64,000 nucleotides of DNA from Thermorudis peleae (GTDB taxonomy: Bacteria; Chloroflexota; Chloroflexia; Thermomicrobiales; Thermomicrobiaceae): NCBI RefSeq assembly GCF_000744775.1, contig NZ_JQMP01000003.1, positions 1,442,564 to 1,506,563 on the forward strand, written 5' to 3'. The notes beneath the pieces are model-generated. The model ran no database searches. It was not told the DNA's origin and saw only the letters and a list, made by a program, of their open reading frames with translations. The stretch's first letter is position 1, and each line of letters starts with the position of its first letter. A program made the translations under genes and the position numbers. Shown piece by piece: positions 36,764 to 63,534 of this stretch.

Positions 36764-36788
36764 GCGTCCGTACGCACCAACTCGATGA

Positions 36789-38006: not shown

Positions 38007-38066
38007 TGCACACACTCCTTTCTGCGGAGCGCCCGGTTCCCCAGTGGGAGCCGGGTACCGTCCCGT

Positions 38067-38788: not shown

Positions 38789-38791
38789 GGA

Positions 38792-38842
38792 GTATAGTAT
38801 GCATGCTATACCAGTATGAACCAGTGCGTGGTTCATGACTGG
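38792..38842. promoter_or_regulatory. Two adjacent palindromes at the toxin start, probable operators
   Basis: 38792-38811 (GTATAGTATGCATGCTATAC) is a 20-base palindrome with one mismatch pair. 38811-38842 is an inverted repeat with 8 perfect pairs ATGAACCA/TGGTTCAT around GTGCG, extended by CCAGT/GACTGG. They sit immediately upstream of the HigB start and are plausible binding sites for HigA or the upstream XRE protein. Confidence 0.6.
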
Positions 38843-41968: not shown

Positions 41969-42040
41969 AAGATGATCTAGGCACATAGATCAATGGCGAT
42001 GGAGGTGTACGGTGTTAAGCAGTAGAGAGGAGGGACTGCC

Positions 42041-43108: not shown

Positions 43109-43133
43109 AAGCCAATATTTGGAGGAATACCAC

Positions 43134-44920: not shown

Positions 44921-44938
44921 GGGGAGAGGAGGCCGACG

Positions 44939-46819
44939 ATGACGACGCGCCGGCTGACGGTGGCGCAGGCCCTGGTGCACTTCCTGGCAGCGCAGTATAG
45001 CGAGCGCGATGGCGTGCGCCAGCGATTGATCCGCGGGGTCTGGGCCATTTTCGGGCATGGCAACGTAGCCGGGCTGGGGCAGGCGCTGGCCGAATACGGG
45101 ACGAGGCTTGGGTTGCCGACCTATCGCCCGCAGCACGAGCAAGCGATGGTGCACGCCGCGGCCGCCTTTGCCCGCCACACTGAACGGCTGAGTACGTTTG
45201 CCTGCACCGCCTCGATCGGGCCAGGCTCGACGAACATGCTCACCGCAGCCGCGGGGGCAACGATCAACCGGCTGCCGGTGCTGCTCTTGCCAGCCGATGC
45301 CTTCGCTAACCGGGTACCTGATCCTGTGCTTCAGCAACTCGAGCACCCACTGGAGCGCGACGTCAGCGTCAACGATGCGTTTCGCCCGCTCTCGCGCTTC
45401 TTTGCCCGGATCACCCGGCCGGAGCAGATGCTGGACGTCCTGCCGGAGGCGATGCGGGTGCTGACGGATCCGGCCGAGACCGGGGCGGTGACGGTGGCCT
45501 TGCCGCAGGATGTGCAGGCCGAAGCCTATGACTGGCCAGTCGCCTTCCTGGCCGAGCGGGTCTGGCCGATCCGCCGGCCGGTGCCGGATCCGGCAGCGGT
45601 CGCCGTGGCGGCACAGCTGCTGCGGCAGGCGGAGCGGCCGCTGGTGATTGTGGGCGGAGGAGCACGCTACAGTGCGGCGGGGGAGGCCCTGGCCGCGCTG
45701 GCCAGCCGCTTTGGCCTGCCGGTTGCCGAGACACAGGCGGGCAAAGGGGTGTTGAGCTGGCAGCATCCGTGGAACGTGGGGCCGATCGGGGTCAACGGCG
45801 GGCTGGCGGCTAACCGGCTGGCACGGCAGGCTGACCTCATTCTGGCGGTCGGCACACGGCTGACCGATTTCACCACGGCGTCCAAGACGGCCTTCCAGCA
45901 TCCTGCGGTGCGGGTCATCGGGCTGAACATTAACGCGGCCGATGCGGCCAAACTGGGCGGGGTGGCGCTGGTGGGCGATGCCCGGCAGGGGATAGAGGCC
46001 TTGGCGGCGGCGCTCAGCGACTGGCCGGGCACGGCTGCGCCCTACCGGGCCGAGGTGGCGCAGTTGCGGACCGAGTGGGACGCGTGGGTCGCGGCGTGGC
46101 GCACGCCGCCCGCAGCAGCCGGGCCACGACTCCGCCAGGCGGCAGTGCTGGGAGTGCTCAACACGGTCGTCGGCGGGCGGGCGACGGTGATCAATGCGGC
46201 GGGGAGCATGCCGGGGGACCTGGTGCGGCTCTGGCGTGCGGAGGAGCCCGCCGCCTACCACGTCGAGTATGGCTACTCGTGCATGGGCTATGAGCTGCCG
46301 GCAGGGATTGGGGTGAAGCTGGCCGAGCCAGACCGGGACGTGGTGGTGCTGGTGGGCGATGGGAGCTACCTCATGGCCAGCGCGGAGTTAGTCACCGCCG
46401 TGGCCGAGGGGCTTGACCTCACCGTGGTGCTGGTGGACAATGGCGGGTTTGGCTCGATCCACGGGTTACAGCAGGCGGTGGGCTCGCCGCCGTTCGGGAA
46501 CTTATTGCGGGCGCGGAATCCGGCGACCGGGCAACTGGATGGGCCGCCGATCGTCGTTGACTACGTCCAGCATGCGGCGGCGATGGGAGCACGGGCCTGG
46601 GCTGTGACGAGCTACGAGGAACTGGCGGCGCGGCTAGCGGAGGCACAGCGGCTGCCGGGGGTGAAGGTGCTGGTTGTGCCGGTTGATCCAGACGACCGGC
46701 TGCCGGGCTGTGAGAGCTGGTGGGACGTGCCGGTTGCCGCAGTCTCGGAGCAGCCGGCGGTGCAGGCCGCCCGCCAGGCCTATGAGCAGGCCCGGCAGCA
46801 GCAACGGTGGTTCGGCTAA
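44939..46819 (+). CDS. iolD: 3D-trihydroxycyclohexane-1,2-dione hydrolase
   Basis: 626-residue TPP-dependent enzyme that opens the ring of THcHDO to 5-deoxy-glucuronate. Similar in layout to acetolactate synthase: Glu in QHEQAMVHAAAAFAR, SIGPGSTNMLTAA, TPP site VGDGSYLMASAELVTAV with VDNGGFGSI. Together with ThuA it makes the GC-rich island between AT-rich iol genes. Confidence 0.95.
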   Translation: MTTRRLTVAQALVHFLAAQYSERDGVRQRLIRGVWAIFGHGNVAGLGQALAEYGTRLGLPTYRPQHEQAMVHAAAAFARHTERLSTFACTASIGPGSTNMLTAAAGATINRLPVLLLPADAFANRVPDPVLQQLEHPLERDVSVNDAFRPLSRFFARITRPEQMLDVLPEAMRVLTDPAETGAVTVALPQDVQAEAYDWPVAFLAERVWPIRRPVPDPAAVAVAAQLLRQAERPLVIVGGGARYSAAGEALAALASRFGLPVAETQAGKGVLSWQHPWNVGPIGVNGGLAANRLARQADLILAVGTRLTDFTTASKTAFQHPAVRVIGLNINAADAAKLGGVALVGDARQGIEALAAALSDWPGTAAPYRAEVAQLRTEWDAWVAAWRTPPAAAGPRLRQAAVLGVLNTVVGGRATVINAAGSMPGDLVRLWRAEEPAAYHVEYGYSCMGYELPAGIGVKLAEPDRDVVVLVGDGSYLMASAELVTAVAEGLDLTVVLVDNGGFGSIHGLQQAVGSPPFGNLLRARNPATGQLDGPPIVVDYVQHAAAMGARAWAVTSYEELAARLAEAQRLPGVKVLVVPVDPDDRLPGCESWWDVPVAAVSEQPAVQAARQAYEQARQQQRWFG

Positions 46820-46835
46820 ATGAGGAGTAATGTAG

Positions 46836-47765
46836 ATGGAGCGGCTGCGCTTCGGCAATGCACCCTGCTCGTGGGGCATTATCGAAGGGATATCGGGGGA
46901 TCGACTCCCGTATTACCAGATGCTCGATGAACTTGTCGAGGCTGGTTATGAGGGAACAGAACTGGGAGATTACGGCTATCTCCCGACTGACCCAGAGGTT
47001 CTTAGAGCAGAGCTGGACCGACGCGGATTAACGCTCCTGGGTGCTTTTGTCATGGTAGCCTTGACTAATCCTCATGCTCATCGTGAGGGGATACAACAAG
47101 CTGTACGCACCGCCACACTTCTTGCACAGGTTGCTGATATCGGCGACCCACACTGGCGACCACTGCTGATTCTATCTGACGCACACAGCTTTGCACCGGT
47201 TCGCCTTACCTACGCTGGCCGAATACGCCCAGAGATGAGCCTCACGAAAGAGGAATGGAATATTGTCACCCAAGGAATCAAACAGATTGTCCAGGCGGTT
47301 CGAGAGACCACTGGCATTGAAACTGTATTTCATCCCCACTGTGCCAGCTACGTTGAGACCCCGGACGAGATTGCGCAAGTGCTTGGGCGTACAGAAATTG
47401 GGCTTGTGTTTGACACGGGACATTACTTCTATGGCAGTGGAGGCCTAGACGCCAGCATTGTCTTAGAAGGAGTAGAGCGCTTCGGGCCTCGAATTCGCTA
47501 TGTCCACCTTAAGGATGTTGACCCTACTTTAGCTGCACGAGCCCGGTCAGAAGGGTGGGATTACCAGAAGGCCGTCCGTTCTGGTTTGTTCTGCGAACTT
47601 GGGAAGGGAGCAATTGAGTTTGGAGCTCTTATTCAGACACTGCTTCGTCTTGGCTACCACGGGTGGATCACGGTTGAGCAAGACGTGGTGCCAGGCACTC
47701 CGATTATCCCCCGAGAGAGTGCATGGCGGAGTCGAGAGTATCTTCGCAAACTCACTGGCTGGTAA
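46836..47765 (+). CDS. iolE: Inosose dehydratase
   Basis: 309 residues, AP-endonuclease/xylose-isomerase TIM barrel: FGNAPCSWGIIEG at the N terminus, GYEGTELGDYGYLP, FHPHCASYVETPDE, VFDTGHYFYGSG, YVHLKDVD and an ending GWITVEQDVVPG. Metal ligands are the Glu/Asp/His in these blocks. Dehydrates 2-keto-myo-inositol to THcHDO. GAGGAG precedes the ATG. Base composition returns to moderate (30 of 60 at 46921-46980). Confidence 0.95.
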   Translation: MERLRFGNAPCSWGIIEGISGDRLPYYQMLDELVEAGYEGTELGDYGYLPTDPEVLRAELDRRGLTLLGAFVMVALTNPHAHREGIQQAVRTATLLAQVADIGDPHWRPLLILSDAHSFAPVRLTYAGRIRPEMSLTKEEWNIVTQGIKQIVQAVRETTGIETVFHPHCASYVETPDEIAQVLGRTEIGLVFDTGHYFYGSGGLDASIVLEGVERFGPRIRYVHLKDVDPTLAARARSEGWDYQKAVRSGLFCELGKGAIEFGALIQTLLRLGYHGWITVEQDVVPGTPIIPRESAWRSREYLRKLTGW

Positions 47766-47791
47766 AAGCTAGTCGTAATGGGGGAAGTGAA

Positions 47792-48805
47792 ATGCCAGAG
47801 TACATGTATGATATTGTCACCCTAGGACGCTGCTCGATTGATCTCTATGCCAATGACATCGGAGTGCCTTTTCCAGAAATTCGAACCTTCGGAGCATATC
47901 TAGGCGGTAATCCTTTGAATATCGCAGTAGGAGCCCGACGTCTCGGCTTAGTCACGGCGCTTGTTAGTGCGGTTGGCGACGATATTGTCGGGGATTTCGT
48001 ACTTACCAGGCTTGCCAAAGAGGGGGTGGAAACCCGATTTATCTCGCGTAAGACGGGAACGCGAACTCCAGCAGTGCTACTTGGTATCGAACCACCTGAT
48101 CACTTCCCACTAGTCTTCTATCGCGAGAACGCAGCAGATTTCCAGCTTACAATTGATGATGTTGCTTCTCTACCGTTTCACGCGATCCGCACCTTCCTAC
48201 TCTCAGGAACAGCCCTTGCCCGAGATCCCTCGCGGAGCGCTGCTCTCTATGCGCTTGAACGAGCGCATGCGAATGGCTGTATGACCTACCTTGATCTTGA
48301 CTTTCGTCCAGATCAGTGGGGTGATCCTCGAAGCTATGGCGTAATCACTCGTCTCGTCTTACCCCTTATTGACGTTGTTATCGGGACTGAGGCGGAGGTT
48401 AACGCCCTCTTCGCGACTCGGGTGAGCGACATACAAATACCTAGGCACCAACTTACGGCTCCTCAAGTATGGGGCGATCTACATGCTCATATTGATCAAA
48501 TTCTTTGTTCAGGGCCAAAAGCCTTGATTGTAAAGCAAGGTGCCGCAGGTGCAACAGCCTATCTTCCGGGACATGAGGCAATTAGGGTCTCTGGCTTCGT
48601 AGTAACGGTGGTGAACACACTCGGCGCTGGCGATGCATTTGCTGCTGGCCTGATCTACGGGCGCCTTCAAGGCTGGGATTGGTACCGCAGTATCCAGTTC
48701 GCGAATGCCTGTGGGGCGATCATCGTAACTCGGATTGGTTGTGCTGACTTTATGCCCACGCGTGTTGAAGTTGAACAATTTCTTGGGGAACACATAACAC
48801 ACTAG
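47792..48805 (+). CDS. iolC: 5-dehydro-2-deoxygluconokinase
   Basis: About 337 residues, PfkB/ribokinase fold: TLGRCSIDLYANDIGVPF, GGNPLNIAVGARRLG, C-terminal anion hole NTLGAGDAFAAGLIYGRLQ with the catalytic Asp. Phosphorylates DKG. Only the kinase domain is present; the DUF2090 domain that is fused in many bacteria is absent and a stand-alone copy lies at 4915-5838. ATG 47792 has GGGGGAAG upstream and is preferred over the in-frame start at 47723. Confidence 0.92.
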   Translation: MPEYMYDIVTLGRCSIDLYANDIGVPFPEIRTFGAYLGGNPLNIAVGARRLGLVTALVSAVGDDIVGDFVLTRLAKEGVETRFISRKTGTRTPAVLLGIEPPDHFPLVFYRENAADFQLTIDDVASLPFHAIRTFLLSGTALARDPSRSAALYALERAHANGCMTYLDLDFRPDQWGDPRSYGVITRLVLPLIDVVIGTEAEVNALFATRVSDIQIPRHQLTAPQVWGDLHAHIDQILCSGPKALIVKQGAAGATAYLPGHEAIRVSGFVVTVVNTLGAGDAFAAGLIYGRLQGWDWYRSIQFANACGAIIVTRIGCADFMPTRVEVEQFLGEHITH

Positions 48806-48833
48806 CTGCTTATGGCAAAGAGGGAAAGTTGAG

Positions 48834-49853
48834 ATGAGTCAGGCAATCGGAATTGCACTCATTGGTGCAGGACGGATCGGACTAGAACATGCCCGGAACC
48901 TAGCCAACATGCCAGAGGTTAAGCTCGTGGCTGTTGCTGACCCAAATGGTGACGCTGCAGCGCAAGCAGCCCTCCTGTCACAGGCAGAACGGACATTCCG
49001 TGATCCTGCTGAGGCAATTGCCTATCCAGGCGTCGACGCAGTTGTTATTGCCTCGCCTTCTGTGCTTCACGCTGAGCATATCCGCCTTGCAGCCCATTTT
49101 AAACGAGCGATCTTCTGTGAAAAGCCAATCGCTCTGACCCTTGCCGAAGCAGAGGCAGTAGCAACTGCAGTTCGCGACGCAGGGGTGCCATTCCAGATTG
49201 GATTCCAGCGTCGCTATGACCCAGGATACATCGCGGCACGGGAGCGTTTGGAGAGCATTGGTCCCGTTGAACAGTTCCACGCTGTCACTCGGGATCCTTT
49301 TCCACCATCACCAGCATTCCTGAAAGCTTCGGGTGGGCTTTTCATCGATCTAGCCATCCACGATTTCGATCTTGCCCGATTTCTGGTTGGTGATGTCGCC
49401 GCGGTTCAAGCATGGGGCCGTGTCTTTGTCGATCCGGAAATTGCTGTTGCTGGGGATGTGGATACTACAATAACAGTGCTGGAATTCGCGAACGGTGCAT
49501 TAGGAGTAATCGAGAACAGTCGTCGTGCAGTCTACGGATATGACATTCGCACCGAAATTTTCGGGGCGCAAGGAATGCTCGTTATCCACGCTTTGCCTAA
49601 AACACCCCTATACTGGTACAGTAAAAGCGGCGTAATCGTCGACCACTTCCACTTCTTCCTCGATCGCTTTCAATCAGCATATCAGGCAGAGTTAGCTGCT
49701 TTCTGTCATGCACTTCGCACTGGGAAACCGCCGACACCGAACTTGGATGATGCCTTACAGGCCCTCGCGATTGGTCTCGCTGCTGCACAAAGTGTCAGCG
49801 AGGGGCGACGGGTAGCTGTGGCGGAGGTGTTGAATCATGAGGATTGCATCTAA
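48834..49853 (+). CDS. iolG: Inositol 2-dehydrogenase (second Gfo/Idh/MocA protein)
   Basis: 339 residues: Rossmann ALIGAGRIGLEHARNL, IFCEKPIALTLAEAE (catalytic EKP), FQIGFQRRYDPGY, LAIHDFDLARFLVGD. Oxidises myo-inositol to 2-inosose, the first catabolic step. Closer to typical IolG than the copy at 43134-44171. It overlaps iolB by 17 bases. Confidence 0.9.
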   Translation: MSQAIGIALIGAGRIGLEHARNLANMPEVKLVAVADPNGDAAAQAALLSQAERTFRDPAEAIAYPGVDAVVIASPSVLHAEHIRLAAHFKRAIFCEKPIALTLAEAEAVATAVRDAGVPFQIGFQRRYDPGYIAARERLESIGPVEQFHAVTRDPFPPSPAFLKASGGLFIDLAIHDFDLARFLVGDVAAVQAWGRVFVDPEIAVAGDVDTTITVLEFANGALGVIENSRRAVYGYDIRTEIFGAQGMLVIHALPKTPLYWYSKSGVIVDHFHFFLDRFQSAYQAELAAFCHALRTGKPPTPNLDDALQALAIGLAAAQSVSEGRRVAVAEVLNHEDCI

Positions 49854-50661
49854 TCCAGCCTGTAGGGCTATCGTGGGCATCACGCCCATGCAGGCCCGAT
49901 GGCGCTACCTCTCATTCTGGGTTATTCAGCTCCAAGTCGGCGAAGGCTATGATCTGCTTCTTGGTCAACAGGAGGCAGCACTTGTACCCTTAGAAGGAAA
50001 AGGACTGGCTAGAGTAGGCAATCAGAATTTTCAGCTACAGCGTAGTAATGTCTTTCAGGAATTACCGCATGTTCTCTACATTCCGCCACAATGTCATCTT
50101 CGCGTGTCAGCAATTACAGCGCTTACATTCGCGATTGGATGTGCCCCAGCCACTGGTATGTTTCCTCTGCGTCTGTTCGCGCCAGCAGAGATGCGTATTG
50201 AGTTGCGTGGCGGAGGACCGGCATGGCGGCAGGTTAACCACATTCTTGGTCCTGATCTGCCAGCTGAACGACTCATTCTCTATGAGGTTTACACGCCATC
50301 AGGTTTCTGGTCGGGTTGGCCACCACATCGGCACGATGGACGTCTTGGTTCACCATACTTTGAAGAAATTTACTACTATCGAATCCAACCGGTCACAGCA
50401 CAGGCCATCCACTGGAACTATGATCCAGAAGAAGGATGTGAAGCATTCTTTGCCGTTCATGACGGCGATTTGGTACTAGTGAGACAGGGGTATCATCCTG
50501 TTGCAGCACCGCCGGGGGCAAATGTTTATTATCTCAATTACTTGGCTGGTGATCCGCGAGGAGCCGAGCGAGCCCTACCACCTGTTGACGACCCAACGTG
50601 GGCCTGGATTCGCAAAGACTGGTCAGGTAATCCACTGATACTGCCAATCGGAGGCGTATGA
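49837..50661 (+). CDS. iolB: 5-deoxy-glucuronate isomerase
   Basis: 274-residue cupin of the KduI/IolB family, with WSGWPPHRHDGR and EEIYYYRIQP providing the metal-binding His/Glu set, and ending YYLNYLAGDPR...WIRKDWSGNP. Converts 5-deoxy-glucuronate to DKG. Coupled to the iolG stop and to the following regulator by a 4-base overlap. GGAGG at suitable spacing. Confidence 0.93.
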   Translation: MRIASNPACRAIVGITPMQARWRYLSFWVIQLQVGEGYDLLLGQQEAALVPLEGKGLARVGNQNFQLQRSNVFQELPHVLYIPPQCHLRVSAITALTFAIGCAPATGMFPLRLFAPAEMRIELRGGGPAWRQVNHILGPDLPAERLILYEVYTPSGFWSGWPPHRHDGRLGSPYFEEIYYYRIQPVTAQAIHWNYDPEEGCEAFFAVHDGDLVLVRQGYHPVAAPPGANVYYLNYLAGDPRGAERALPPVDDPTWAWIRKDWSGNPLILPIGGV

Positions 50662-51470
50662 GTATTCAAGAACGGCGACGATACATCATTGAACTACTCG
50701 AAACCAAAGGTGAAGTGACAGTCGATGAGCTTGCGCAGCGCTTTGGCGTCAGTCAGGTTACGATTCGCAAAGATCTGCATGAACTAGAAGAGCGTGGCAT
50801 TCTCCACCGCACGCATGGCGGGGCCATTCCGGTCCATAAAAGCCTGTTTAATCCTTCGTTCTACGAGAAGCTCAACTTTAAGCGGCAGGAGAAACAAGCG
50901 ATCGCCTGGGCCGCGCTCGAGCTGATCCAAGAGGGCGACAGCATCATCCTGGATGCTGGCAGCACCACGCTCGCCCTGGCACGGCTGCTGCGCCACCGGT
51001 TTCGTCGGCTCTACGTCATCACGAATTCGATGCCGGTCGCCTTGGAACTGTCCAAGTCCGGCTTCGATGTGCTACTCACGGGCGGGCAGATGCGGCACCA
51101 TAGCCTGGCGCTCATCGGGCCGGCAGCGGTCGACATGCTGCGGCACTACCATGTCGACAAAGCGTTTCTGGGGGCGACGGGTGTGGATGACCAAGGCTAC
51201 TCGACGCCGAACCCGATTGAAGCGCAGACGAAACGGGCGCTGCTGCAGGCTGCGAGCGTGGCCTACGTGCTCGCCGACTCCAGCAAGCTTGGGCAGCCAA
51301 CGCTGGCACGTTTCGCGGCGTTGGAAGAAGTGGCCCTGCTCATTACTGATGCTGCGGCCCCGGCTGACTTCTTGTCGCGCCTGGATGCGCGTGGGCTCAA
51401 ATACTGGCTCGCTCCGCAAGCCCCCAGCAAGCACAGGTGCGAAACACTGCCCCCTCCCCACACCCCTTGA
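50658..51470 (+). CDS. iolR: DeoR-family regulator, probable repressor of the iol operon
   Basis: 270 residues: N-terminal HTH (RRRYIIELLETKGEVTVDELAQRFGVSQVTIRKDL) and HRTHGGA, then the sugar-phosphate-sensing DeoRC domain (DAGSTTLALARLL, TNSMPVALEL, LTGG, FLGATGVD). IolR of B. subtilis is the same family and responds to DKG phosphate. Base composition shifts inside the gene, from 29 G+C of 60 at 50641-50700 to 42 of 60 at 50941-51000, so it is a chimaera or a recombination endpoint. The C-terminal 20 residues are Pro-rich and unusual. Confidence 0.9.
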   Translation: MSIQERRRYIIELLETKGEVTVDELAQRFGVSQVTIRKDLHELEERGILHRTHGGAIPVHKSLFNPSFYEKLNFKRQEKQAIAWAALELIQEGDSIILDAGSTTLALARLLRHRFRRLYVITNSMPVALELSKSGFDVLLTGGQMRHHSLALIGPAAVDMLRHYHVDKAFLGATGVDDQGYSTPNPIEAQTKRALLQAASVAYVLADSSKLGQPTLARFAALEEVALLITDAAAPADFLSRLDARGLKYWLAPQAPSKHRCETLPPPHTP

Positions 51471-51814: not shown

Positions 51815-54800
51815 ATGACGACGACACTTGATGCACTCTGTGTGCCACGCGATTGGGTTTTTGATCCATCAGTTCATGACACGGTCCATGACATCGACGA
51901 ACTTGATCAGCTTGATCCAGAACGCTTCTTCGCAGAAAACTATGTCACGGAGGGGATGCGGCAACTCCTGAGTGAGGCCTTCAAGCGTCTCGAGGGACAG
52001 ACCGAGAACGCGTCTGGCATCTTCCTGCTCTCGCAGTCCATGGGTGGCGGCAAGACGCACAACCTGCTGGCGCTTGGGCTCCTTGCCAAGTATCCGAAGT
52101 GGCGCGAGCCAGTCATGGGGTCCTTCTACAAACCAGGGCCACTCGGATCGGTCCGGGTCGTTGCCTTCAGCGGACGAAAGACGAATACCCCCTACGGTAT
52201 CTGGGGCGAAATCGCCGAACAACTCAACCGACGGGAGGTGTTTCGCGACTTCTACAGCCCGCTTCGCGCGCCTGGAGTGGAAAACTGGGTAGAACTCTTG
52301 CGAGGTGATCCTGTTCTGATCCTGCTCGATGAATTGCCACCCTATTTCCAGGCTGCGCGGGCAATCCAGGTAGGGCAAACGACCCTTGACCAGCTCACCA
52401 CCGTGGCGCTCGCGAATCTGTTGGTCGCGGTCGCCAGTGGAAAACTCCCAAGGGTCTGCGTCGTCCTGACTGACCTCCGTGCCCAGGCCTACGAAGCCGG
52501 GAGTACGGCGATCTCCGAGGCTCTCCGCAATCTCGAGCTCGAAGCGAATCGCACCGCAACGCGGATCGATCCGGTTCGTTTGAACACGGCAGAGTTGTAC
52601 GCGATTCTCCGGCAGCGCCTCTTCAAACACCTCCCTGGGGAAGCAGAGATCGCCAAGGTTGCTGACGCGTACGCTCAGGCGCTCGAGCAGGCGCGGGTGC
52701 TCGACCTGAGCGCGCTCTCGCCACAGGCAGTACGGAGCGAGTTGCTGTCTTCGTACCCGTTCCATCCCGCGATCCGCGATCTCTTCGCCCGCTTTCGCGA
52801 GAACCCTGGGTTCCAGCAAACACGCGCCCTGATCCGGATGATGCGGATCGTCGTCGCGCAATTGTGGTCGACCGGCGCCGCGCGGCACAAGTTCCTGGTC
52901 GGCGCTCACGATGTCGACCTCAGCCGCTCAGACATGATTAGCGAGATCCGACAGATCAATGGAGCCCTTGAGAACGCCATCGCCCACGACATCGTCGACG
53001 AGCGGGGTGGCGCGGTTGCCCAACAGATCGACGCAGAACTCGGTGGGAGCGGTGCCCGTGATGCGGCGACGTTGATTTTCCTCTCCTCATTGTCGCTGGC
53101 TGTCAATCCAGTCCTCGGGTTAGATCGGTCTGAAATCTTCGGCTATCTGGCCGAACCAGGCCGGGAACTCACGCAGGTGCGTGAGGCGCTGGATCATCTT
53201 CAGCAGTACGCCTGGTATCTCCACACGACAACCGCCGGGAAACTGCTCTTCAAGAATGTCGAGAACCTCAACGCCAAGCTCGAAAGCTATGCGAGCGGGC
53301 TGCGCGACGAGCGCGAACTTGAGCTTCGGGAGCGCCTCCGCGGCATGTTCACGCCGAATCTTCAAACCTGCTATCAGGTTGTCGAGCCGTTACCAGCGCT
53401 CGATCAGGTTCAGCTGAGCCCAGATCGGGTGACGCTCATCATCTTCCGTCCGTTGTCAACGGCGCTGGCCGAGGTTCAACGCTGGTGGGAAAACCAGCAA
53501 TACAAGAACCGGGTCCTCTTCCTCACCGGTACTTCCGCCGGTTATGAGCGCGTGATCGAACGCGCTGCCTATCTCCGGGCTATCCGGCAGATCATGGAGG
53601 AGTTCAAGCAGCAGAATGTCCCGGAGACCGATCCACAGTTCATCGAGGCGCGCAAGATCGCCGAGCGAGAAGAGAGCGCGTTCTACCTCGCCTGCCGCGA
53701 AACGTTCCAAAACCTCTACTACCCCTACCGCACTGGGCTCGTCCCAGTCGACCTCGACCCGCGGTACGTGGCAAATCACTACAATGGAGAACGGCAGATC
53801 ATCGAAGCGCTCAAGGCGGTCGAAAAATTCCGTGAGGATACTGATCCGAACTCCGTCGGGTTCCGGCAGTTACTCGAGAGCCGTCTCTGGCCGGAGGGCC
53901 AGAAGGAAGTGCTCTGGTCGGAGATCAAACGGCGAGCAGCAGCTGACCCAGGCTGGGTGCTCCATCACCCGCGGGCACTCGACCATCTCAAGGATGCGCT
54001 TGTCCAGCGAGACATCTGGCGCGATATCGGCGGCGGGTACATCCAGCGTGGACCATTCCCCAAGCCGAAAACTGCAGTACAGATCCAACGTGTCTCCCGC
54101 GATGACAACTCCGGCGAAGTCACGCTCCGTGTCAAACCGCTGCATGGCGATACGGTCTATTACAGTTTCAATGGCCCACCGACCACCCAGGCCACGAAGC
54201 TCGAGGGCAGTCAGTTGACGACCTGCGCTTTGCGCGTCTGGTTCCTCGCGGTCGACTCGAAGGGAGAACACGAGACTGGTGAGCCCACGTGCTGGACGAA
54301 CGACCTGGAGGTCAAGTATCGCTTCTACCAGCAGGGTGAGCAGCGGATGTGCGAACTTCGCGCGATCCCCGAGGGGGAGATTCGGTACACGCTCGATGGT
54401 TCCAGCCCCGATCGCTATGGAATCCACTATGACGGACCGTTCCCCGTCCCAGCTGATACCTGGGTGATCCTGGCGCAAGCGACGGCCGATGAGCTGAGTT
54501 CGCAGGTACTCCAGATTAACGTTCCTATAGGTCCGAACACACCCTCTGTTGATCGGCACAAGGCAGCGCGTTGGGAGCGTCGTCAGCGGCTGGACGATAC
54601 GGGAGCAACGTATCGCTTCCTCGAGTTGGTCGAGCGACACGGAGCTCGCTTGTGCGGGGTCATGGCAATAGTCGCCCGGGAACAACGCTGGGTCCAGCTC
54701 ACGGCTGACTCTCAGACTGAGTTCACCGCTGCCCAGCTACGGGATGCCCTCGAAATGCTGCGCCAGTACCTCCCGAACGGGCTTATCACCCTCGATGTCG

Positions 54801-54889
54801 AAGCAATCTGGACCGAAACGGGACAACAACTGCTCGATCTTGTGGCCGACCTACGGACCGAACTCAAGCCGGAGGAGGTCAAGCAGTGA
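51815..54889 (+). CDS. DUF499 P-loop ATPase with chitobiase-like C-terminal domains
   Basis: About 1024 residues. The N-terminal ATPase has Walker A MGGGKTH (Met76-His82), Walker B LILLDELPPYF near residue 170, and matches COG1483/DUF499, related in role to the large ATPases of BREX systems. The C-terminal region holds segments with the YTLDGSSPD pattern and DGPFPVPADTW near residues 855-880, the chitobiase/hexosaminidase C-terminal fold, unusual for an intracellular ATPase. I choose ATG 51815, where homology-like sequence begins; the frame is open to 51620 through a low-complexity Ser/Arg stretch. First gene of a four-gene cassette; overlaps the next by 4 bases. ATP-driven remodelling or DNA translocation is inferred. 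Confidence 0.82.
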   Translation: MTTTLDALCVPRDWVFDPSVHDTVHDIDELDQLDPERFFAENYVTEGMRQLLSEAFKRLEGQTENASGIFLLSQSMGGGKTHNLLALGLLAKYPKWREPVMGSFYKPGPLGSVRVVAFSGRKTNTPYGIWGEIAEQLNRREVFRDFYSPLRAPGVENWVELLRGDPVLILLDELPPYFQAARAIQVGQTTLDQLTTVALANLLVAVASGKLPRVCVVLTDLRAQAYEAGSTAISEALRNLELEANRTATRIDPVRLNTAELYAILRQRLFKHLPGEAEIAKVADAYAQALEQARVLDLSALSPQAVRSELLSSYPFHPAIRDLFARFRENPGFQQTRALIRMMRIVVAQLWSTGAARHKFLVGAHDVDLSRSDMISEIRQINGALENAIAHDIVDERGGAVAQQIDAELGGSGARDAATLIFLSSLSLAVNPVLGLDRSEIFGYLAEPGRELTQVREALDHLQQYAWYLHTTTAGKLLFKNVENLNAKLESYASGLRDERELELRERLRGMFTPNLQTCYQVVEPLPALDQVQLSPDRVTLIIFRPLSTALAEVQRWWENQQYKNRVLFLTGTSAGYERVIERAAYLRAIRQIMEEFKQQNVPETDPQFIEARKIAEREESAFYLACRETFQNLYYPYRTGLVPVDLDPRYVANHYNGERQIIEALKAVEKFREDTDPNSVGFRQLLESRLWPEGQKEVLWSEIKRRAAADPGWVLHHPRALDHLKDALVQRDIWRDIGGGYIQRGPFPKPKTAVQIQRVSRDDNSGEVTLRVKPLHGDTVYYSFNGPPTTQATKLEGSQLTTCALRVWFLAVDSKGEHETGEPTCWTNDLEVKYRFYQQGEQRMCELRAIPEGEIRYTLDGSSPDRYGIHYDGPFPVPADTWVILAQATADELSSQVLQINVPIGPNTPSVDRHKAARWERRQRLDDTGATYRFLELVERHGARLCGVMAIVAREQRWVQLTADSQTEFTAAQLRDALEMLRQYLPNGLITLDVEAIWTETGQQLLDLVADLRTELKPEEVKQ

Positions 54890-55506
54890 CGCGCCAGCGA
54901 GCGGTCTACGACTTCGGCTTCGATCCGAGTCATGGTGGCCACCACTTCGAGCTGAACGACGATGGCCAGCTCGTGACCCTCGTCGAATGGTTTGCCTGGA
55001 ACGGCACGGAACCAGGGGACGACGAGAAACTGCTCCCGGCCCCGGAGCCCAAGGTGCACCTGGATCGCTATCGCTGGTTGCGTATTGCTGCGGCTGCGGC
55101 CGACGAGTTCAATGCTCGGCTCCGGCGAGCGAGACTGCGCCCGGCAAACTGGAAGACACGGACGCTCCTCGCACCGCACTTCGGCAAAGAACTCGCCCTC
55201 TTGATGTGGGCGGTCGAAGACCTCGACCCGTCGCTTATCCCCAATGTCATCGCGAACTGGCGTGGCTTCGCCCCGGAAGAACGCTGGTGGCTCTACACGA
55301 CGATCAACGCGACAGCCGGACACCCGGAACATGGGAAAGACCGCGGCTGGCGCAAGGCGATCCGGATCGCACTCGCCGAGAATCCGACCGAGGGGACGCC
55401 GTCCTCGGCCCTCCGCGAGCTGGCACCGTTGCTCGAGGCTCAGGAGCGCCGGCGTCGCCGGGAACAGCGGCGTCCCGAACAACCGCGGCTTCCGCTCGGG
55501 GAATAG
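54886..55506 (+). CDS. DUF3780 protein of the defence cassette
   Basis: 206 residues, N-terminal GFDPSHGGHHFELNDDGQLVTLVEW, central Trp-rich RYRWLRIAAAAADEFNARL and AHEADDL-like helices, C terminus Arg-rich. It matches the small DUF3780 family that sits between DUF499 and DUF1156 genes in other genomes. Its activity is unknown; a structural or regulatory subunit is likely. GTG 54886 overlaps the DUF499 stop (GTGA). Confidence 0.7.
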   Translation: MTRQRAVYDFGFDPSHGGHHFELNDDGQLVTLVEWFAWNGTEPGDDEKLLPAPEPKVHLDRYRWLRIAAAAADEFNARLRRARLRPANWKTRTLLAPHFGKELALLMWAVEDLDPSLIPNVIANWRGFAPEERWWLYTTINATAGHPEHGKDRGWRKAIRIALAENPTEGTPSSALRELAPLLEAQERRRRREQRRPEQPRLPLGE

Positions 55507-55527
55507 CAAAGGAGAGGGGAGGGGACG

Positions 55528-58467
55528 ATGCAGGCAGGGGATGCCCCAAGATACGTCGCGCAACTGGCAATGGGCGCAGCACGAGCGAGGAGCGATGCGC
55601 CTGCCTTCATCGAGGTGCAGTTCCCGGTCAGCAAGCTGTCCAAGGAATGCTATAAGGAGCGCAAGGCCGGATCCGGGCAGACTCTCTCGCCGCTCGGCAA
55701 GTGGTGGGGGCGCAAGCCGCTCGTCCTGGTGCGGGCCATCCTCCTTGGGCTCCTCATGCCGGCCACTGACGACCCGGTAGCTGACCGCGAGGTGTTCCTC
55801 GCCGCGATGACCATGGACGACGATGGGATGCTCCGCCGGTTCACCGGGCAGGTTAGCCCCGCCGACCTCTATCCGTTCTGCACTCCCCGCGAGCGTAGCG
55901 AGTACTTCGTGACCGAAAACGGCAAGCCCGCCTGGCGTCCAGGCCTTTCGGCGGCCGACCGGGAGCACCTCAAGCGACGGGCTTTCCTCCGCATGGGCTA
56001 CGACAACCGCCTGCGCTTCTGCCTCCGGCCAGAGGAGATCGCTGGGCCGAGCGACGCGGCCTGGGAGCGGATCAATGCGCACCTCGGCACGAACGCCCGG
56101 AACCTCCCCGAACTCGTCCGCCAGCTGGGCGAGCGACGCTTCGGGCAGGTGCCCCGGGTGGGGGACGCCTTCTGCGGCGGCGGGAGCATCCCGTTCGAGG
56201 CCGCCCGGCTCGGCTGCGAGGTCTACGCCTCGGACTTGAACCCGGTCGCCGTGCTGCTCACCTGGGGGGCGCTGGCGCTCACCGGCGGCGGGCCGGACGT
56301 CGTCCAGCGCGTCTCAGCGGCCCAGCGGCGCGTCTTCGAGGACGTGCGGCGCCAGGTCGAGGCGTGGGGGATCGAGCGCAACGAAGAAGGCTGGATCGCC
56401 GATGCCTACCTGTACTGCCACGAAGTGCGCGATCCCCTGACTGGCTGGTGGGTACCACTCGCGCCGACCTGGGTGATCTCGAAGAAGAAGCGCGTGGTCG
56501 CGAAGCTCGTGCCTGACCCCACAACCAAGCGGTTCACGATCGAGATCCACGAGGGGGTGAGCGAGGCCGCACTCCGGCAAGCCGAGGAGGACGGGACCTG
56601 GGCCAACGGCGTCCGCTGCCCGGTCGACCGCGACGGCACCTGGCTGCCGCCAGCCCAGCGGCAGGTGACCAGCGCCGAGCAGCTCCGCGGACGGACGGGC
56701 CTGCGGCGCTGGGAGAACGAGGATCTCGTGCCCCGGCCGGACGACGTCTTCCAGGAGCGGCTCTACTGCATCCGCTGGGTCGATCCCACGACGGGCGAGC
56801 GCCACTACCGGGCGCCGACGGCAGCCGACCTCGCACGCGAGCGACAGGTGCTGGCGTTGCTGCAGGAGCGCTTCGCTGCCTGGCAGGCGCAGGGCTACCT
56901 GCCGAGCCAGCGGATCGAATCGGGCGACAAGACCGAAGAGCCAATTCGTACGCGCGGCTGGACGCACTGGCACCACCTGTTCAACCCGCGGCAGCTTTTG
57001 CTCCACGGCCTGCTGGCCGAGCGGGCGGCCAAGGAGTTCGGCGTGGAGGCCGCCGCGCTGCTCCTCATGCTCGGCCGGGTAGCGAACTGGAACAGCCGGC
57101 TGAGCGTGTGGGATAGGAGTCGCGAGACGATTCAACAAACTTTTCTTAACCAGGCGCTCAACACCCTGGTCGACTATGCCTGTCGCTCAGTCAGTGGGCT
57201 CGAGACCACCTTCTGCGCCGAACTCGCTGCTGCGCCGGTCGCTGGCCCCTACCACCTGCAGCCAGCCGATGCACGCAACGTGGACAGGGAGGCCGACATC
57301 TGGATCACCGACCCCGGATACGGCGACAACGTCAACTACCACGAGCTCTCCGAGTTCTTCCTGGCCTGGTACGAGAAGCGGCTGCCCGTGCTCTTTCCGG
57401 GCTGGTACGCCGATAGCAAGCGGGCGCTCGCGGTCAAGGGCGAGGGGGAAACGTTCCGCCTGGCGCTGGCCGAGTGCTACCAGAACCTGGCCCGTCGCAT
57501 GCCGGACGACGGCTACCAGGTCGTCCTGTTCGTCCACCAGGATCCGGAGATGTGGGTCGATTTGACCCTCGTCCTCTGGGCGGCCGGGCTTCGGGTCACG
57601 GCAGCCTGGACGGTGCTCACCGAGACGTCAAGCGGGATCCGTGCCGGGAACTACGTACAGGGGACGGTCGTCCTCGTCCTGCGCAAGCGTCAGGGCGACC
57701 GCCGTGGCGAACTCGTCGACCTTTATCCAGAGATCCGGGCTGAGGTGGAGCGGCAACTCGAGACGATGCTCGCGCTCGACCCGAAGGACGACCCCAACTT
57801 CGGCGACGCAGACTACCAGCTGGCGGCCTATGCGGCTGCGCTGCGTGTCCTGACAAGCTACAGCGCGATCGGTGATATCGACGTCGAGCGCGAACTCCGC
57901 CGCCCACGGCCGAAGGGCGAGCGCACTCCCATCGGCCAGGTCATTGAGCAGGCCGTGCGGATCGCGACCGACTACCTGGTGCCGGAGGGGCTGGAGCGCG
58001 CGGTCTGGCGGCAACTTGGGCCGGAGGAGCGGCTCTACCTCAAGGGGATTGAAGTCGAAGCCCACGAGGAGACGCGCGAGGGAGTCTACCAGGAATTTGC
58101 ACGTACCTATGGCGCACGCGACTACCGCATGCTCCTGGCCAGCCGCGCGGCCAACCGCACGCGGCTCAAGACGCCCTCGGAGTTCGGTGCGCGTGACCTG
58201 CGTCCACTCGGGCAAGAAGGGTTCGGGGGCACGCTCCTCCGTCACGTCCTGTTCGCGATCTACCGTGCAGCGAGTGACCCCGAGGGTGACCCGCGCCCAG
58301 CGCGCCAGTACCTCCGGCAGGAACTTGCTGACTATTGGGGCGCGCGACAGACCGTGCTCGCGCTGCTACGGTATCTGAGTACCAAACCGGCCGGCTTGCC
58401 ACACTGGCAGTCCGATGTGCACGCCGCGCAACGAGTGAAGGCTGTGGTGGAAGCGGATACCCTCTAA
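55528..58467 (+). CDS. DUF1156 adenine-specific DNA methylase with variant DPGY motif
   Basis: 979 residues. The N-terminal DUF1156 block (FIEVQFPVSKLSKECYKER, SPLGKWWGRKPL) is followed by SAM-binding motif I GDAFCGGGSIPFEAARLG (residues 212-229) and YASDLNPVA. The catalytic motif, DPPY in most N6-adenine methylases, reads Asp595-Pro-Gly-Tyr598, then GDNVNYHELSEFFLAW. The central insertion replaces the Zn ribbon of COG1743 with few Cys. Motif order (I before IV) and size match COG1743. GGGGAGGGG precedes the ATG. It would modify host DNA, or bind it, as part of the cassette. Confidence 0.88.
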   Translation: MQAGDAPRYVAQLAMGAARARSDAPAFIEVQFPVSKLSKECYKERKAGSGQTLSPLGKWWGRKPLVLVRAILLGLLMPATDDPVADREVFLAAMTMDDDGMLRRFTGQVSPADLYPFCTPRERSEYFVTENGKPAWRPGLSAADREHLKRRAFLRMGYDNRLRFCLRPEEIAGPSDAAWERINAHLGTNARNLPELVRQLGERRFGQVPRVGDAFCGGGSIPFEAARLGCEVYASDLNPVAVLLTWGALALTGGGPDVVQRVSAAQRRVFEDVRRQVEAWGIERNEEGWIADAYLYCHEVRDPLTGWWVPLAPTWVISKKKRVVAKLVPDPTTKRFTIEIHEGVSEAALRQAEEDGTWANGVRCPVDRDGTWLPPAQRQVTSAEQLRGRTGLRRWENEDLVPRPDDVFQERLYCIRWVDPTTGERHYRAPTAADLARERQVLALLQERFAAWQAQGYLPSQRIESGDKTEEPIRTRGWTHWHHLFNPRQLLLHGLLAERAAKEFGVEAAALLLMLGRVANWNSRLSVWDRSRETIQQTFLNQALNTLVDYACRSVSGLETTFCAELAAAPVAGPYHLQPADARNVDREADIWITDPGYGDNVNYHELSEFFLAWYEKRLPVLFPGWYADSKRALAVKGEGETFRLALAECYQNLARRMPDDGYQVVLFVHQDPEMWVDLTLVLWAAGLRVTAAWTVLTETSSGIRAGNYVQGTVVLVLRKRQGDRRGELVDLYPEIRAEVERQLETMLALDPKDDPNFGDADYQLAAYAAALRVLTSYSAIGDIDVERELRRPRPKGERTPIGQVIEQAVRIATDYLVPEGLERAVWRQLGPEERLYLKGIEVEAHEETREGVYQEFARTYGARDYRMLLASRAANRTRLKTPSEFGARDLRPLGQEGFGGTLLRHVLFAIYRAASDPEGDPRPARQYLRQELADYWGARQTVLALLRYLSTKPAGLPHWQSDVHAAQRVKAVVEADTL

Positions 58468-58479
58468 CGGAGGTTGCAG

Positions 58480-61182
58480 GTGCTGCTGCGCTATTCCTCT
58501 CGCCTGGCACCGCTGCGCGCCTTTCTCACCGAGGCGCTGGAAGGTGCACTGGCATACGATCGGATCGCCGGTTTCTTCAGCTCCTCGATCCTCGAGGTAG
58601 CCGGGGAGCCACTGGAGCGGATGGCACCTGGTGCGCAGGTGCGTGTCATCGCCAACTCCGCCCTGCAGCCGCTCGATGTGGAGACGGCGCGGGCGGCGAA
58701 GGCCGCGATGTACGCCGAGTGGTGTCAGACACTCCCGGAGTACCTTCCACCCCGGTTGAAGGAGCGGCTGCGTCGCCTCTACACGTTCCTTGCAAGTGGC
58801 CAACTCCAGGTACGTGTCTTACCCGATGCATATTTCGGCCTCATCCATGGAAAGGCCGGCGTGATCACGCGAGCCGATGGCTCACGGATTGCATTTCTGG
58901 GAAGCGTCAACGAGTCACGGGAAGCATGGGAAGTTAACTACGAACTCCTCTGGGCTGATGATTCGGAAGACGGCGTCCGTTGGACAAGCGAGGAGTTCGA
59001 AGCGCTCTGGTACCACTCTGGCGCCATCAATCTGGCCGATGCGGTGGTACGGGATATCGAGCGGCTCTCGCGTCGGATCGTCGTGCCAAGTATCGCCGAG
59101 TGGCGTGAGACGTACCAGGCGGAGCCGGCCGCTGCGGCAGTGGAGCTTCCAGTAGCCCGGCAGGGAACGGGCTTGTGGGCCCACCAGAAATCCTTTGTCA
59201 AGCTCGCGTTTGACCTGCACCGCCATCGTGGTGCTCGACTCATCCTTGCAGACGAGGTCGGCCTGGGTAAGACGGTCCAACTCGGGCTCGCTGCGAAGTT
59301 AATGGTGCTGTGGGGTGGCGGGAATGTCCTCGTGCTTGTCCCAAAACCGTTGGTCGGGCAGTGGCAGGACGAGCTGTGGGATTTGCTCGCGTTGCCCTCG
59401 GCGGTATGGACAGGCCGCACCTGGATTGATGAGAACGGCGTTGAGTATCCCGCGAACGGGGTGGACGGGCTGCAGCATTGCCCGCGGAAGGTGGGAATCG
59501 TCTCGGCCGGACTCATCACGCAGTCTGACGAAGCAGCTGAGGTGTTGGCTAACCTTCACTACGAGTGTGTGATCGTCGACGAAGCACACCGGGCGGGACG
59601 CCGCAACCGCGGTGCATCGCACCGGAACGAGAAGGCCGATCCGAACAACTTACTTCGCTTCCTCCAACGTGTGGCCGAGCGGACGCGCAGTCTGCTCCTC
59701 GCGACGGCGACACCAGTGCAACTGGATCCGATCGAAGCGTGGGATCTACTGGAGGCGCTCAATCGCGGCAATGAGACTGTCCTTGGAAGCCGGTACAGTC
59801 GATGGCTAACCCGCCCGCGCGAGGGGCTGAACTACGTGCTCAACTGGGCGAAACCACCGGAGAATCTACGAGAACTGTGGGAGTGGGTTCGTGACCCACT
59901 GCCACCGGCAAGCGAGGCACCAGCATTCGAGATTCTTCGCCGGTCGCTCAATATGAACGAGACTGAGAGTTGGGCACCACCCGAGGCGTTCGATCGCCTC
60001 TCCCAACCAGCACGGCGGCATTTGGAATGGATCAGCCGCGAGTTCTTCCAAAACTACAATCCTTTTCTCCGGCATATTGTCCGACGGACACGTGAGTATT
60101 TGGAGCAGACCATCGACCCAGAAACGGGGGAGCCATATCTCACGCCGGTACGGGTACGCTTATTCGGTGAAGGCGAGCATGATGCGCTCTTGCTCCCACC
60201 GCTTCTCCAAGATGCCTACAACACTGCTGAAGAATTTTGTCAAGAAGTGGCATCGCGTCCTGGGTTCAATTCGGGCTTTCTCAAAACACTTCTCCTGCGC
60301 CGCGTCGGGAGCACGATTGAGGCGGGACGGCTGACAGCACAGCGCCTGCTTGAAGGGAGGGAGCAATCGGAAGAGGACGAGGAAGATGAACGCCCATCGT
60401 CCCTTCACCCGCTCACGCAGCGAGAACGGGAGCTGCTCGAACGATTTCTCCAGTTGCTCGAAGCGGCGCGAGCAGCAGATCCCAAATTGCAAGCGGTCAC
60501 GGACATTCTCTGCCACGGTGTAGACGATACCGAACCTTGGCGCCAGTATGGCTGCATCGTTTTCAGCCAGTATTACGACTCAGCCCATTGGATTGCTCAG
60601 CACCTCTCCCAGTATCTCCCTGAAGAAGAGATTGGCCTCTACGCTGGAGCAAACAAGTCGAAGCTTTTTCAAGGGGGGAATGCGACACACGTTGGCCGGG
60701 ATGTGCTGAAGGAGCGTGTGCAACGAGGTGAATTGCGTATTCTCGTCGGGACCGATGCTGCTTCCGAGGGACTTAACCTGCAGCGTCTTGGCGCCCTCAT
60801 TAACGTTGACCTCCCGTGGAATCCGACGCGGCTTGAACAGCGCAAGGGACGCATTCAACGCATCGGGCAACCACGGCCAATAGTATTCATCTATAACCTG
60901 CGTTACCAGGGATCGGTCGAAGATCGGGTGCATCGTCTGTTATCAGCACGGCTCCAAGCAATTCATGCTCTCTTCGGACAACTTCCCGATACGCTCGAAG
61001 ACGTGTGGATTGCGCTCGCTCTACGCCAAGAAGAACGGGCCCGACAAATCATCGATGCAACCCCTTTGCAGCACCCCTTCGAACTACGCTATCACCGGGT
61101 TACCCCAGTGGACTGGGAGTCGTGCGCTGCCGTACTGGAAAAGACAAGTCAGCTGGAGTTTCTGCGGCAAGGATGGAAGTAA
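58480..61182 (+). CDS. PLD-like/SNF2 helicase of the defence cassette
   Basis: About 900 residues. The N-terminal phospholipase-D-like domain carries His123-Gly-Lys125 and GSVNES (141-146), one HKD half-site, which suggests nuclease activity as a dimer. The SNF2-type helicase follows: DEVGLGKT (258-265), DEAH (367-370), LLATATP, then the second RecA lobe with VFSQYYDSA, GTDAASEGLNLQ and QRKGRIQRIGQ (787-797). GTG 58480 has GGAGG 6 bases upstream; TTG 58474 overlaps that site. Twelve bases after the methylase stop. Likely the effector or DNA-translocating component. Confidence 0.88.
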   Translation: MLLRYSSRLAPLRAFLTEALEGALAYDRIAGFFSSSILEVAGEPLERMAPGAQVRVIANSALQPLDVETARAAKAAMYAEWCQTLPEYLPPRLKERLRRLYTFLASGQLQVRVLPDAYFGLIHGKAGVITRADGSRIAFLGSVNESREAWEVNYELLWADDSEDGVRWTSEEFEALWYHSGAINLADAVVRDIERLSRRIVVPSIAEWRETYQAEPAAAAVELPVARQGTGLWAHQKSFVKLAFDLHRHRGARLILADEVGLGKTVQLGLAAKLMVLWGGGNVLVLVPKPLVGQWQDELWDLLALPSAVWTGRTWIDENGVEYPANGVDGLQHCPRKVGIVSAGLITQSDEAAEVLANLHYECVIVDEAHRAGRRNRGASHRNEKADPNNLLRFLQRVAERTRSLLLATATPVQLDPIEAWDLLEALNRGNETVLGSRYSRWLTRPREGLNYVLNWAKPPENLRELWEWVRDPLPPASEAPAFEILRRSLNMNETESWAPPEAFDRLSQPARRHLEWISREFFQNYNPFLRHIVRRTREYLEQTIDPETGEPYLTPVRVRLFGEGEHDALLLPPLLQDAYNTAEEFCQEVASRPGFNSGFLKTLLLRRVGSTIEAGRLTAQRLLEGREQSEEDEEDERPSSLHPLTQRERELLERFLQLLEAARAADPKLQAVTDILCHGVDDTEPWRQYGCIVFSQYYDSAHWIAQHLSQYLPEEEIGLYAGANKSKLFQGGNATHVGRDVLKERVQRGELRILVGTDAASEGLNLQRLGALINVDLPWNPTRLEQRKGRIQRIGQPRPIVFIYNLRYQGSVEDRVHRLLSARLQAIHALFGQLPDTLEDVWIALALRQEERARQIIDATPLQHPFELRYHRVTPVDWESCAAVLEKTSQLEFLRQGWK

Positions 61183-61272
61183 AGATAACATGGCGGTGTC
61201 CTGTTGATAGCACGCTAACAAAGGAGGCGGCATTTTCTGGTCAAAGAGTTCCCCTGCGTGAGGTCTCCTCTC

Positions 61273-61413: not shown

Positions 61414-61414
61414 G

Positions 61415-61980: not shown

Positions 61981-61986
61981 CACACG

Positions 61987-63072: not shown

Positions 63073-63534
63073 TTAAAGCCGGAAAAATAGCATGCACCTG
63101 CAACTGAAAAGCCGCAGGTCCATGCACCAAGGGTGCGCATGGGCCTCAGACGCCCCCGCTCCCTGCAAGGCCGCAACGATTTCATCCCAATCCGACGGCC
63201 GCCAGACACGAACGATGATGCCAGGTACTTGTTGGAGCACGGCAAGCCAGGCCTCTTGCGCCGGCGAAAGCTTGCCACGTTCAGTCTTGAGTTCGGTCAG
63301 GATCAACGGCCGGCCTGGCTTGGCGAGCACCAAATCTGGGAAGCCCGCTGGCGAGCGCACCGAAATCCAGGTATGATAGACCTGCCAGCCGAGCAACCGA
63401 CGCATGGAGGGAACCTCATCAAAACCTCGACGAAACCTCGACGCTTCTGGGTGGGGTGTGCCGCCGCCACAGCTCCCGCGGCGTCGTCTCCCGGGCACCC
63501 GGGTCGAGCCAGCGCCGCCGGCCGTGCCAGTCAT
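63073..63534 (-). CDS. VRR-NUC domain nuclease, phage type
   Basis: 153 residues. After an Arg/Gly-rich N-terminal stretch the core reads LLGWQVYHTW, RSPAGFPDLVLAKPG, ILTELKTERGKLSPAQ and VRVWRPSDWDEIV, the stand-alone VRR-NUC pattern common in phages: Asp in PDLVL, Glu and Lys in ELK form the PD-(D/E)XK site. ATG 63534 overlaps the upstream stop (ATGA). The first 40 residues are unusual and may reflect a frameshift that removed the normal N-terminal helix. Confidence 0.82.
   Translation of the reverse strand: MTGTAGGAGSTRVPGRRRRGSCGGGTPHPEASRFRRGFDEVPSMRRLLGWQVYHTWISVRSPAGFPDLVLAKPGRPLILTELKTERGKLSPAQEAWLAVLQQVPGIIVRVWRPSDWDEIVAALQGAGASEAHAHPWCMDLRLFSCRCMLFFRL

Follow-up and report, generated by a model that had tools for sequence, protein, structure and literature searches.

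The locus analysed here raises the question of whether four closely packed genes of Thermorudis peleae form an anti-phage system and, if so, which of their products would choose the target. The genes lie in a 64,000-nucleotide stretch of DNA, called the window below. In the original prediction they were described as a tight, one-strand cassette of named families, a description that held in coordinates, spacing, family scores and motifs. An open reading frame (ORF) check of the sequence found all four frames open from their starts, on the plus strand between 51815 and 61182; the DUF499 and DUF3780 genes overlap by 4 bases, and the next gaps measure 21 and then 12 bases. The profile search proposed at that time was run, and each protein has its own best match in the PADLOC (PDLC02189-02193) and NCBIfam (NF042961-NF042964) anti-phage sets. 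All four are named by Pfam, PADLOC and NCBIfam, at scores well beyond chance, the last with the label 'anti-phage-associated' or 'anti-phage'. Scores of the methyltransferase (NCBIfam, 1311 bits) and the PLD-Snf2 protein (1210 bits) exceed the cut-offs of 1000 and 1100 bits. In contrast, the DUF499 protein (PADLOC, 716 bits; NCBIfam, 860 bits against 1200) and the DUF3780 protein (Pfam, 123 bits, 1.3e-35; NCBIfam, 114 bits against 200) fall below their NCBIfam cut-offs, i.e. form a divergent branch. We take DefenseFinder Gao_RL to be the four-gene set seen here, and the 'RL' system of Gao et al. 2020 reportedly has the same gene set, with tested anti-phage activity.

The start codons and motifs of the four genes were located individually (Table 1). 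The DUF499 gene starts at ATG 51815, within a longer frame opening at 51620; its product carries a Walker A motif (SMGGGKT) at residue 75, LILLDE with its DE at residues 168-173 and, by Pfam-type profile search, a single Fn3_assoc (Fn3-like) domain at residues 848-898. The DUF3780 gene starts with GTG 54886. The methyltransferase gene starts at ATG 55528, preceded by a GGAGAGGGGAGG stretch, and encodes motif I (DAFCGGGS) at residue 213 and motif IV (DPGY) at residue 595. Its product is presumed to form m6A, although tRNA guanine-N2 methyltransferases head the fold matches. For the PLD-Snf2 gene, GTG 58480 is preceded by GGAGG, and the ORF list uses the in-frame TTG 58474 instead. This protein comprises PLDc_2 (residues 53-179), Snf2 (237-450) and Helicase_C (692-798) domains with the motifs HGK, GSVN, GLGKT, DEAH, TATP and RIQRIGQ, and its PLD part has one HxK motif per chain. 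A domain profile search gave no Tudor match in it at E <= 0.01. A 'dead methylase' due to the DPGY motif was considered and rejected: motif I is intact, and DPGY is not an oddity of the window gene because 76 of 121 compared sequences (the window and the best 120 of 7986 matches) carry it, with DPPY in the other 45 and motif I kept. Downstream (3') of the cassette, two plus-strand ORFs of 65 and 178 residues (61783-61980 and 61987-62523) stand in tandem in a toxin-antitoxin-like layout, and the 178-residue product has no family match in Pfam, PADLOC, NCBIfam or PHROG.

Table 1. Features of the window, with positions, strand and the basis of each assignment
Feature	Position	Strand	Basis
tRNA-SeC gene, island integration site	36667..36763	+	tRNA search
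attL, exact 70-bp direct repeat (tRNA-Sec 3' part plus 5 bases)	36699..36768	+	sequence comparison
Tyrosine integrase adjoining attL	36789..38015	-	family match
HTH gene (38067-38453) and Gp49 gene (38450-38836), toxin-antitoxin-like pair	38067..38836	-	family match
Sugar ABC transporter and inositol catabolism genes on island	40150..51470	+	models, sequence reading
DUF499 AAA+ ATPase, 1024 aa	51815..54889	+	Pfam, PADLOC, NCBIfam, motifs
DUF3780 protein, 206 aa, core GKEL / PEERWW / GWR	54886..55506	+	Pfam, PADLOC, NCBIfam, family alignment, AlphaFold2 model
DUF1156 DNA methyltransferase, 979 aa	55528..58467	+	Pfam, PADLOC, NCBIfam, motifs, AlphaFold2 model
Exchangeable, predicted target-recognition segment, methyltransferase aa 498-592	57019..57303	+	identity profiles of near-identical copies
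PLD nuclease-Snf2 helicase fusion, 900 aa from GTG 58480	58480..61182	+	Pfam, PADLOC, NCBIfam, motifs
VRR-NUC nuclease	63073..63534	-	domain match

Judged from its families, the gene set is not new and matches that of the Type-2 BREX-related (BR) systems. Rakesh and Krishnan (2026; PMC12839542) describe BR systems centred on DUF499 and report Type-2 in 1120 taxa, with a DUF499 ATPase, DUF3780, a DUF1156 methyltransferase and an HKD-Snf2 fusion as its parts. Type-2 BR shares with the window cassette a DUF499 ATPase with an Fn3-like domain, a stand-alone DUF3780 gene as part of the core locus, a methyltransferase whose core has a target-recognition domain (TRD) insert in the long region separating motifs I and IV, and an HKD nuclease placed N-terminally on the Snf2 helicase, where it replaces a Tudor domain. 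The paper also reports two FnIII-like domains before a C-terminal RRM of DUF499 in 53% of taxa, and notes rapid TRD divergence and a nested TRD in BR methyltransferases; the Type-2 BR mechanism, host DNA methylation with phage restriction, is inferred by its authors, and the segment exchange described below adds evidence bearing on it. Gene content does not differ from that of Type-2 BR, whereas the window has motif IV DPGY and a recognition segment exchanged as a block. The candidate anti-phage system of the original prediction thus stands as a predicted defence locus, but not as a new one, the gene set being already described (PMC12839542), represented by PADLOC and NCBIfam models and present in annotated public records; the assumption that it belonged to no described system failed for the gene set.

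Comparison with other defence systems sets the cassette apart from them. In type I BREX, the methyltransferase (BrxX/PglX) determines the specificity of both marking and defence (PMC11341690, PMC11842806), and the window methyltransferase would do the same. However, the cassette is not a member of type I BREX: as originally predicted, PglZ is lacking, with no PF08665 match in the whole genome assembly, and a PLD-Snf2 protein is present instead. Furthermore, the exchanged segment of the window methyltransferase lies before motif IV, whereas the TRD of type I BREX is C-terminal. The DrmB (DUF1998/MZB) of DISARM is likewise absent from the locus, as had been claimed, the only MZB match in the genome lying more than 100 kb away (contig C4:116135). 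In Type-1 BR / Hma (HmaABC; PMC8565338, PMC12839542), the helicase, methyltransferase and ATPase are of related families, and PADLOC HmaA, HmaB and HmaC match the cassette proteins at lower scores. However, according to PMC12839542, Hma has no DUF3780, and a Tudor-helicase-REase replaces the PLD-helicase.

The co-occurrence survey that had been suggested alongside the original prediction bore out the four genes as a unit. A scan of the genome-contig collection with a DUF3780 query gave no match, and one PLD-helicase query was then used. The 89 loci surveyed were the best 80 of 90 genome loci, 7 viral-contig loci and two known carriers. DUF499, DUF3780, methyltransferase and PLD-helicase genes were found in one order and on one strand in 68 of them; the other 21 had the methyltransferase and PLD-helicase (13 loci) or the PLD-helicase only (8 loci). 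Less than 3.3 kb of sequence lay upstream of the first gene found in 20 of these 21, which look like cut contigs, and in the remaining one (L165) only a short methyltransferase match preceded the PLD-helicase. All four genes occurred in order on a T. roseum plasmid, on the P. fluorescens plasmid pG69 and in E. coli UMNK88. Within the class, DUF3780 was detected in 10 of 150 genomes, including our own; 10 further loci had DUF499 at nine, the methyltransferase at eight and the PLD-helicase on the same piece at four, and most class loci with no PLD-helicase on the same piece were short contigs. DUF3780 relatives were also present in 20 plasmid records.

Several loci departed from the common layout. 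The methyltransferase gene of L020 is in the opposite orientation. In L016 (7143-8968), a gap of about 1.9 kb separates the methyltransferase and PLD-helicase genes and contains two ORFs, of which the first reads as ATPase-like and is a possible auxiliary effector; L017, of the same class, has a similar gap. In E. coli UMNK88 (L126, 14574-22494), the DUF3780 gene measures 1101 bp and is possibly a fusion, and the PLD-helicase gene overlaps by 4 bases with a downstream gene annotated as a restriction endonuclease.

The complete four-gene system can also occur on viral or proviral contigs. All five IMG/VR contigs found with the DUF3780 query of Proteus phage vB_PvuS_Pm34 (L121-L125) carry the four genes, the DUF499 gene being cut at the contig end in L121. 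The phage itself (KY420199, L119) encodes the last ~190 residues of DUF499 and the DUF3780 gene at 11335-12477, near lysis genes, with 91.9% DNA identity in this region to 17 of 5426 E. coli genomes; no methyltransferase or PLD-helicase was found in the 13.6 kb examined, and the phage genes may be a remnant or a decoy. A role of phage-borne DUF3780 as an anti-defence protein was considered, and no conclusion was drawn from this one record among 50,697, with a C-terminal DUF499 piece and DUF3780 only.

The cassette is part of an element inserted at the tRNA-Sec gene (selC). The other exact copy of the 70-bp repeat, attR, lies at 7219-7288 of contig C4, past the end of the window's contig. As positions 1-2852 of C4 overlap window positions 61146-64000 at 99.8% identity, the element spans 27,302 + 4,436 = 31,738 bp (~31.7 kb). 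Among its inositol genes, IolD was assigned by an equivalog model, the periplasmic binding protein and ThuA by Pfam, and the other iol names and DeoR by sequence reading. On C4, the island continues with a protein with a weak AAA match (below cut-off), a Prim-Pol and, beside attR, a 418-residue protein with no family match. A strong PLD-helicase match on contig C2, a candidate second cassette copy, was discarded as assembly overlap, being 99.75% identical to window positions 59559-64000. C2 also has, at 7191-13034, an inverted self-repeat at 99.6% identity, and the contig overlaps C3 and C4, probably as an assembly artefact.

On the sequence evidence, insertions at selC recur within the family. 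A tRNA-Sec match was found in 19 of 21 family genomes, with an additional partial copy, oriented alike, in four (our own, G000, and G007, G011 and G015). The relative G015 has a selC element of ~9.3 kb with a 61% identical integrase, a 37% identical homologue of the 418-residue protein, a Prim-Pol and a DNA polymerase A. A search for an empty attB covered ten relatives, all from outside the genus, and detected no copy of the gene to the right of attR close to selC in the stretches examined. The cassette was probably gained by horizontal transfer, since its proteins are 86-89% identical to those of T. roseum, whereas yardstick genes of related genomes are 57-78% identical. This yardstick is small, consisting of three genes of G011, G007 and G015 (LysS, 76-78%; PurH, 57-59%; a TPP enzyme near selC, 64.5-66.5%), and not of the T. 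roseum chromosome.

Copies from the same clade were compared base by base. The T. roseum plasmid (L118) from 5048 to 20638, with an annotated thymidylate synthase and the cassette, aligns in order to G011, so that both copies have the same surroundings. Their cassettes share 95.7% DNA identity, and the only 200-base bins below 0.93 are two at cassette bases 5201-5600, i.e. methyltransferase residues ~497-629 in T. roseum positions; these copies lie outside the alignment that defined the segment limits given below. Between the window and G011, segment identity is 0.60, against 0.84-0.95 elsewhere. Between the window and T. roseum, it is 0.79 with 0.75 in a neighbouring block, and no clear switch is visible. 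The G011 copy (L014, 4486-13880) shows several frame breaks in DUF499 and one each in the methyltransferase and PLD-Snf2 genes, from decay or assembly error.

A passenger cassette, serving no defence at present and maintained by its mobile element, e.g., to exclude rival elements, would fit the place on the selC element, the plasmid-borne DUF3780 relatives, the whole systems on viral contigs and the broken frames of the G011 copy. However, the four window genes are open, with all motifs present and 86-89% identity to the T. roseum copy, and the exclusion of rival elements would be defence as well. We consider this explanation extremely improbable.

Within the cassette, one methyltransferase segment is exchanged between many otherwise near-identical copies. 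Among 46 complete loci, 102 pairs had PLD-helicases at least 90% identical. The segment, whose limits (residues 498-592, window numbering) were set after the identity profile had been seen, was below 40% identical in 85 of these pairs, between 0.4 and 0.6 in three and at least 70% in 14. In the same pairs, mean identity was 91% for the methyltransferase C terminus, 92% for DUF499, 88% for DUF3780 and 95% for the PLD-helicase. The lowest 90-residue window fell in the methyltransferase in 79 pairs, in DUF499 in 14 (counting there a tie in the identical pair L132/L212), in DUF3780 in six and in the PLD-helicase in three, some of those outside the methyltransferase being alignment gaps (0.00 in L128/L130 and L162/L126). 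These pairs share loci and hence are not independent; they are mostly proteobacterial copies from one PLD-helicase query, many of them on metagenome-assembled genome (MAG) contigs. Among 15 non-overlapping pairs, the lowest window was in the methyltransferase in 11 and in another protein in 4, and the segment was below 0.4 in 10; four pairs showed no segment swap (0.84-0.99), besides L132/L212, which is identical throughout and probably one locus in two collections.

Individual pairs illustrate the exchange. Copies of Comamonas granuli and a Rhodanobacter denitrificans MAG are identical in DUF499 (100%) and DUF3780 (100%) and 99.1% identical in the PLD-helicase, with a segment identity of 27%. 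Across the segment, their DNA identity drops from 1.00 to ~0.5 and then recovers to 1.00, a course expected of recombination rather than drift. Likewise, Nitrospira defluvii and Stutzerimonas copies are 99.5, 99.0 and 99.1% identical in the other three proteins and 38% in the segment. Between Pseudomonas simiae CCUG 50988 and P. fluorescens P69, both cultured, the corresponding values are 97-98% and 26%. Segment identity was unrelated to that of the backbone, with medians of 0.28-0.38 in six PLD-helicase identity classes from 0.6 up (2188 of 2211 pairs), and similar segments occurred on distant backbones (e.g., L133/L185; PLD-helicase, 0.68; segment, 0.88). The 67 methyltransferases grouped into 29 segment types, and six of the nine types with several members were shared by different backbones. 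Conversely, several segment types were present in 9 of 9 clusters at a PLD-helicase identity of at least 95%, in 9 of 10 at 97% and in 6 of 8 at 98%.

Whether any other part of the cassette changes along with the segment bears directly on which protein reads the target. Pairs with the same segment (40) and with different segments (243), matched for PLD-helicase identity, were compared in 25-residue blocks. The difference exceeded 0.15 in ten blocks, all within methyltransferase residues 251-600, with weaker co-switching in this protein back to residue 251. No block in DUF499, DUF3780 or the PLD-helicase differed by more than 0.15 (means, 0.87/0.85, 0.77/0.74 and 0.86/0.85, respectively). If defence is methylation gated, constancy of the other three proteins while the segment changes would place the target information in the methyltransferase.

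This pattern weighs on a classical restriction-modification arrangement, in which the PLD-helicase would read its own site, matched to that of the methyltransferase. A fusion of a PLD nuclease to an Snf2 motor is known from stand-alone restriction enzymes such as SauUSI, an architecture that would suit such a reading. However, PLD-helicases that are ~99% identical are paired with different segments, 9 of the 10 clusters at 97% or more hold more than one segment type, and none of the PLD-helicase blocks co-switches, which makes an effector with a site of its own very unlikely.

Recognition of the invader by the DUF499 ATPase is a second alternative, which we regard as unlikely. In PMC12839542, domain analysis assigns the DUF499 RRM a role in recognizing the invader, and the lowest DUF499 stretch between the window and T. 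roseum (residues 880-919, 55%) lies toward the C terminus. However, copies with 100% identical DUF499 and DUF3780 proteins have quite different segments. The lack of co-switching DUF499 blocks also counts against site-specific, mark-matched recognition, although not against recognition of a general invader feature.

A third alternative, that modified DNA is what the effector attacks, with the methyltransferase labelling the target and not self (type IV-like, or marking of phage progeny as in Pgl), draws on the suggestion in PMC12839542 that modified bases, whether in phage or self DNA, may be read by DUF3780, some DUF3780 proteins being fused to such readers. One would, however, expect a methyltransferase in the same tight cassette to act on the host genome as well, and we consider this reading highly improbable. 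For DUF3780, which does not co-switch, reading of sequence is less likely than a role as an adaptor or as a reader of some invariant feature.

Overall, the reading upheld as most likely is that of the original prediction, a methylation-linked defence whose effector is the PLD-helicase. We consider it likely that the cassette, as cargo of the selC element, encodes methylation-guided anti-phage restriction, with the methyltransferase as the sole sequence-specific part guiding PLD-Snf2 to unmodified incoming DNA. The methyltransferase would mark a short host motif set by segment 498-592, and the DUF499 ATPase and DUF3780 would join it in a scanning complex. Binding of the methyltransferase at an unmarked site would then license the ATPase to load PLD-Snf2, whose motor would translocate and whose PLD domain would cut, a dimer being probable given the single HxK motif in the PLD part of each chain. 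By analogy, segment swapping argues for methyltransferase-guided restriction as in BREX, in a form with no PglZ, although a swapped segment shows change in that part and not that the effector obeys it.

For Type-2 BR as a whole, the evidence inclines us, with somewhat less confidence, to a fixed chassis with a plug-in cartridge: the ATPase, DUF3780 and PLD-helicase would be sequence blind, and a methyltransferase segment of ~95 residues, recombining across genera and phyla, would set the target for both marking and destruction. One-segment exchange on a constant chassis was not found in print for BR systems in the literature covered, from which subscription papers were mostly absent, and the available text of PMC12839542 has no match for 'swap' or 'recombination'. 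The segment-swap pairs would point to the methyltransferase, and not to the published DUF499 RRM, as the target reader. If this holds, a helicase-nuclease with no site of its own would be steered by a methyltransferase, a BREX-like logic with no PglZ and a real nuclease. Near-identical copies differing in one segment would then be natural pairs, predicted to have different motifs and phage ranges with the same effector.
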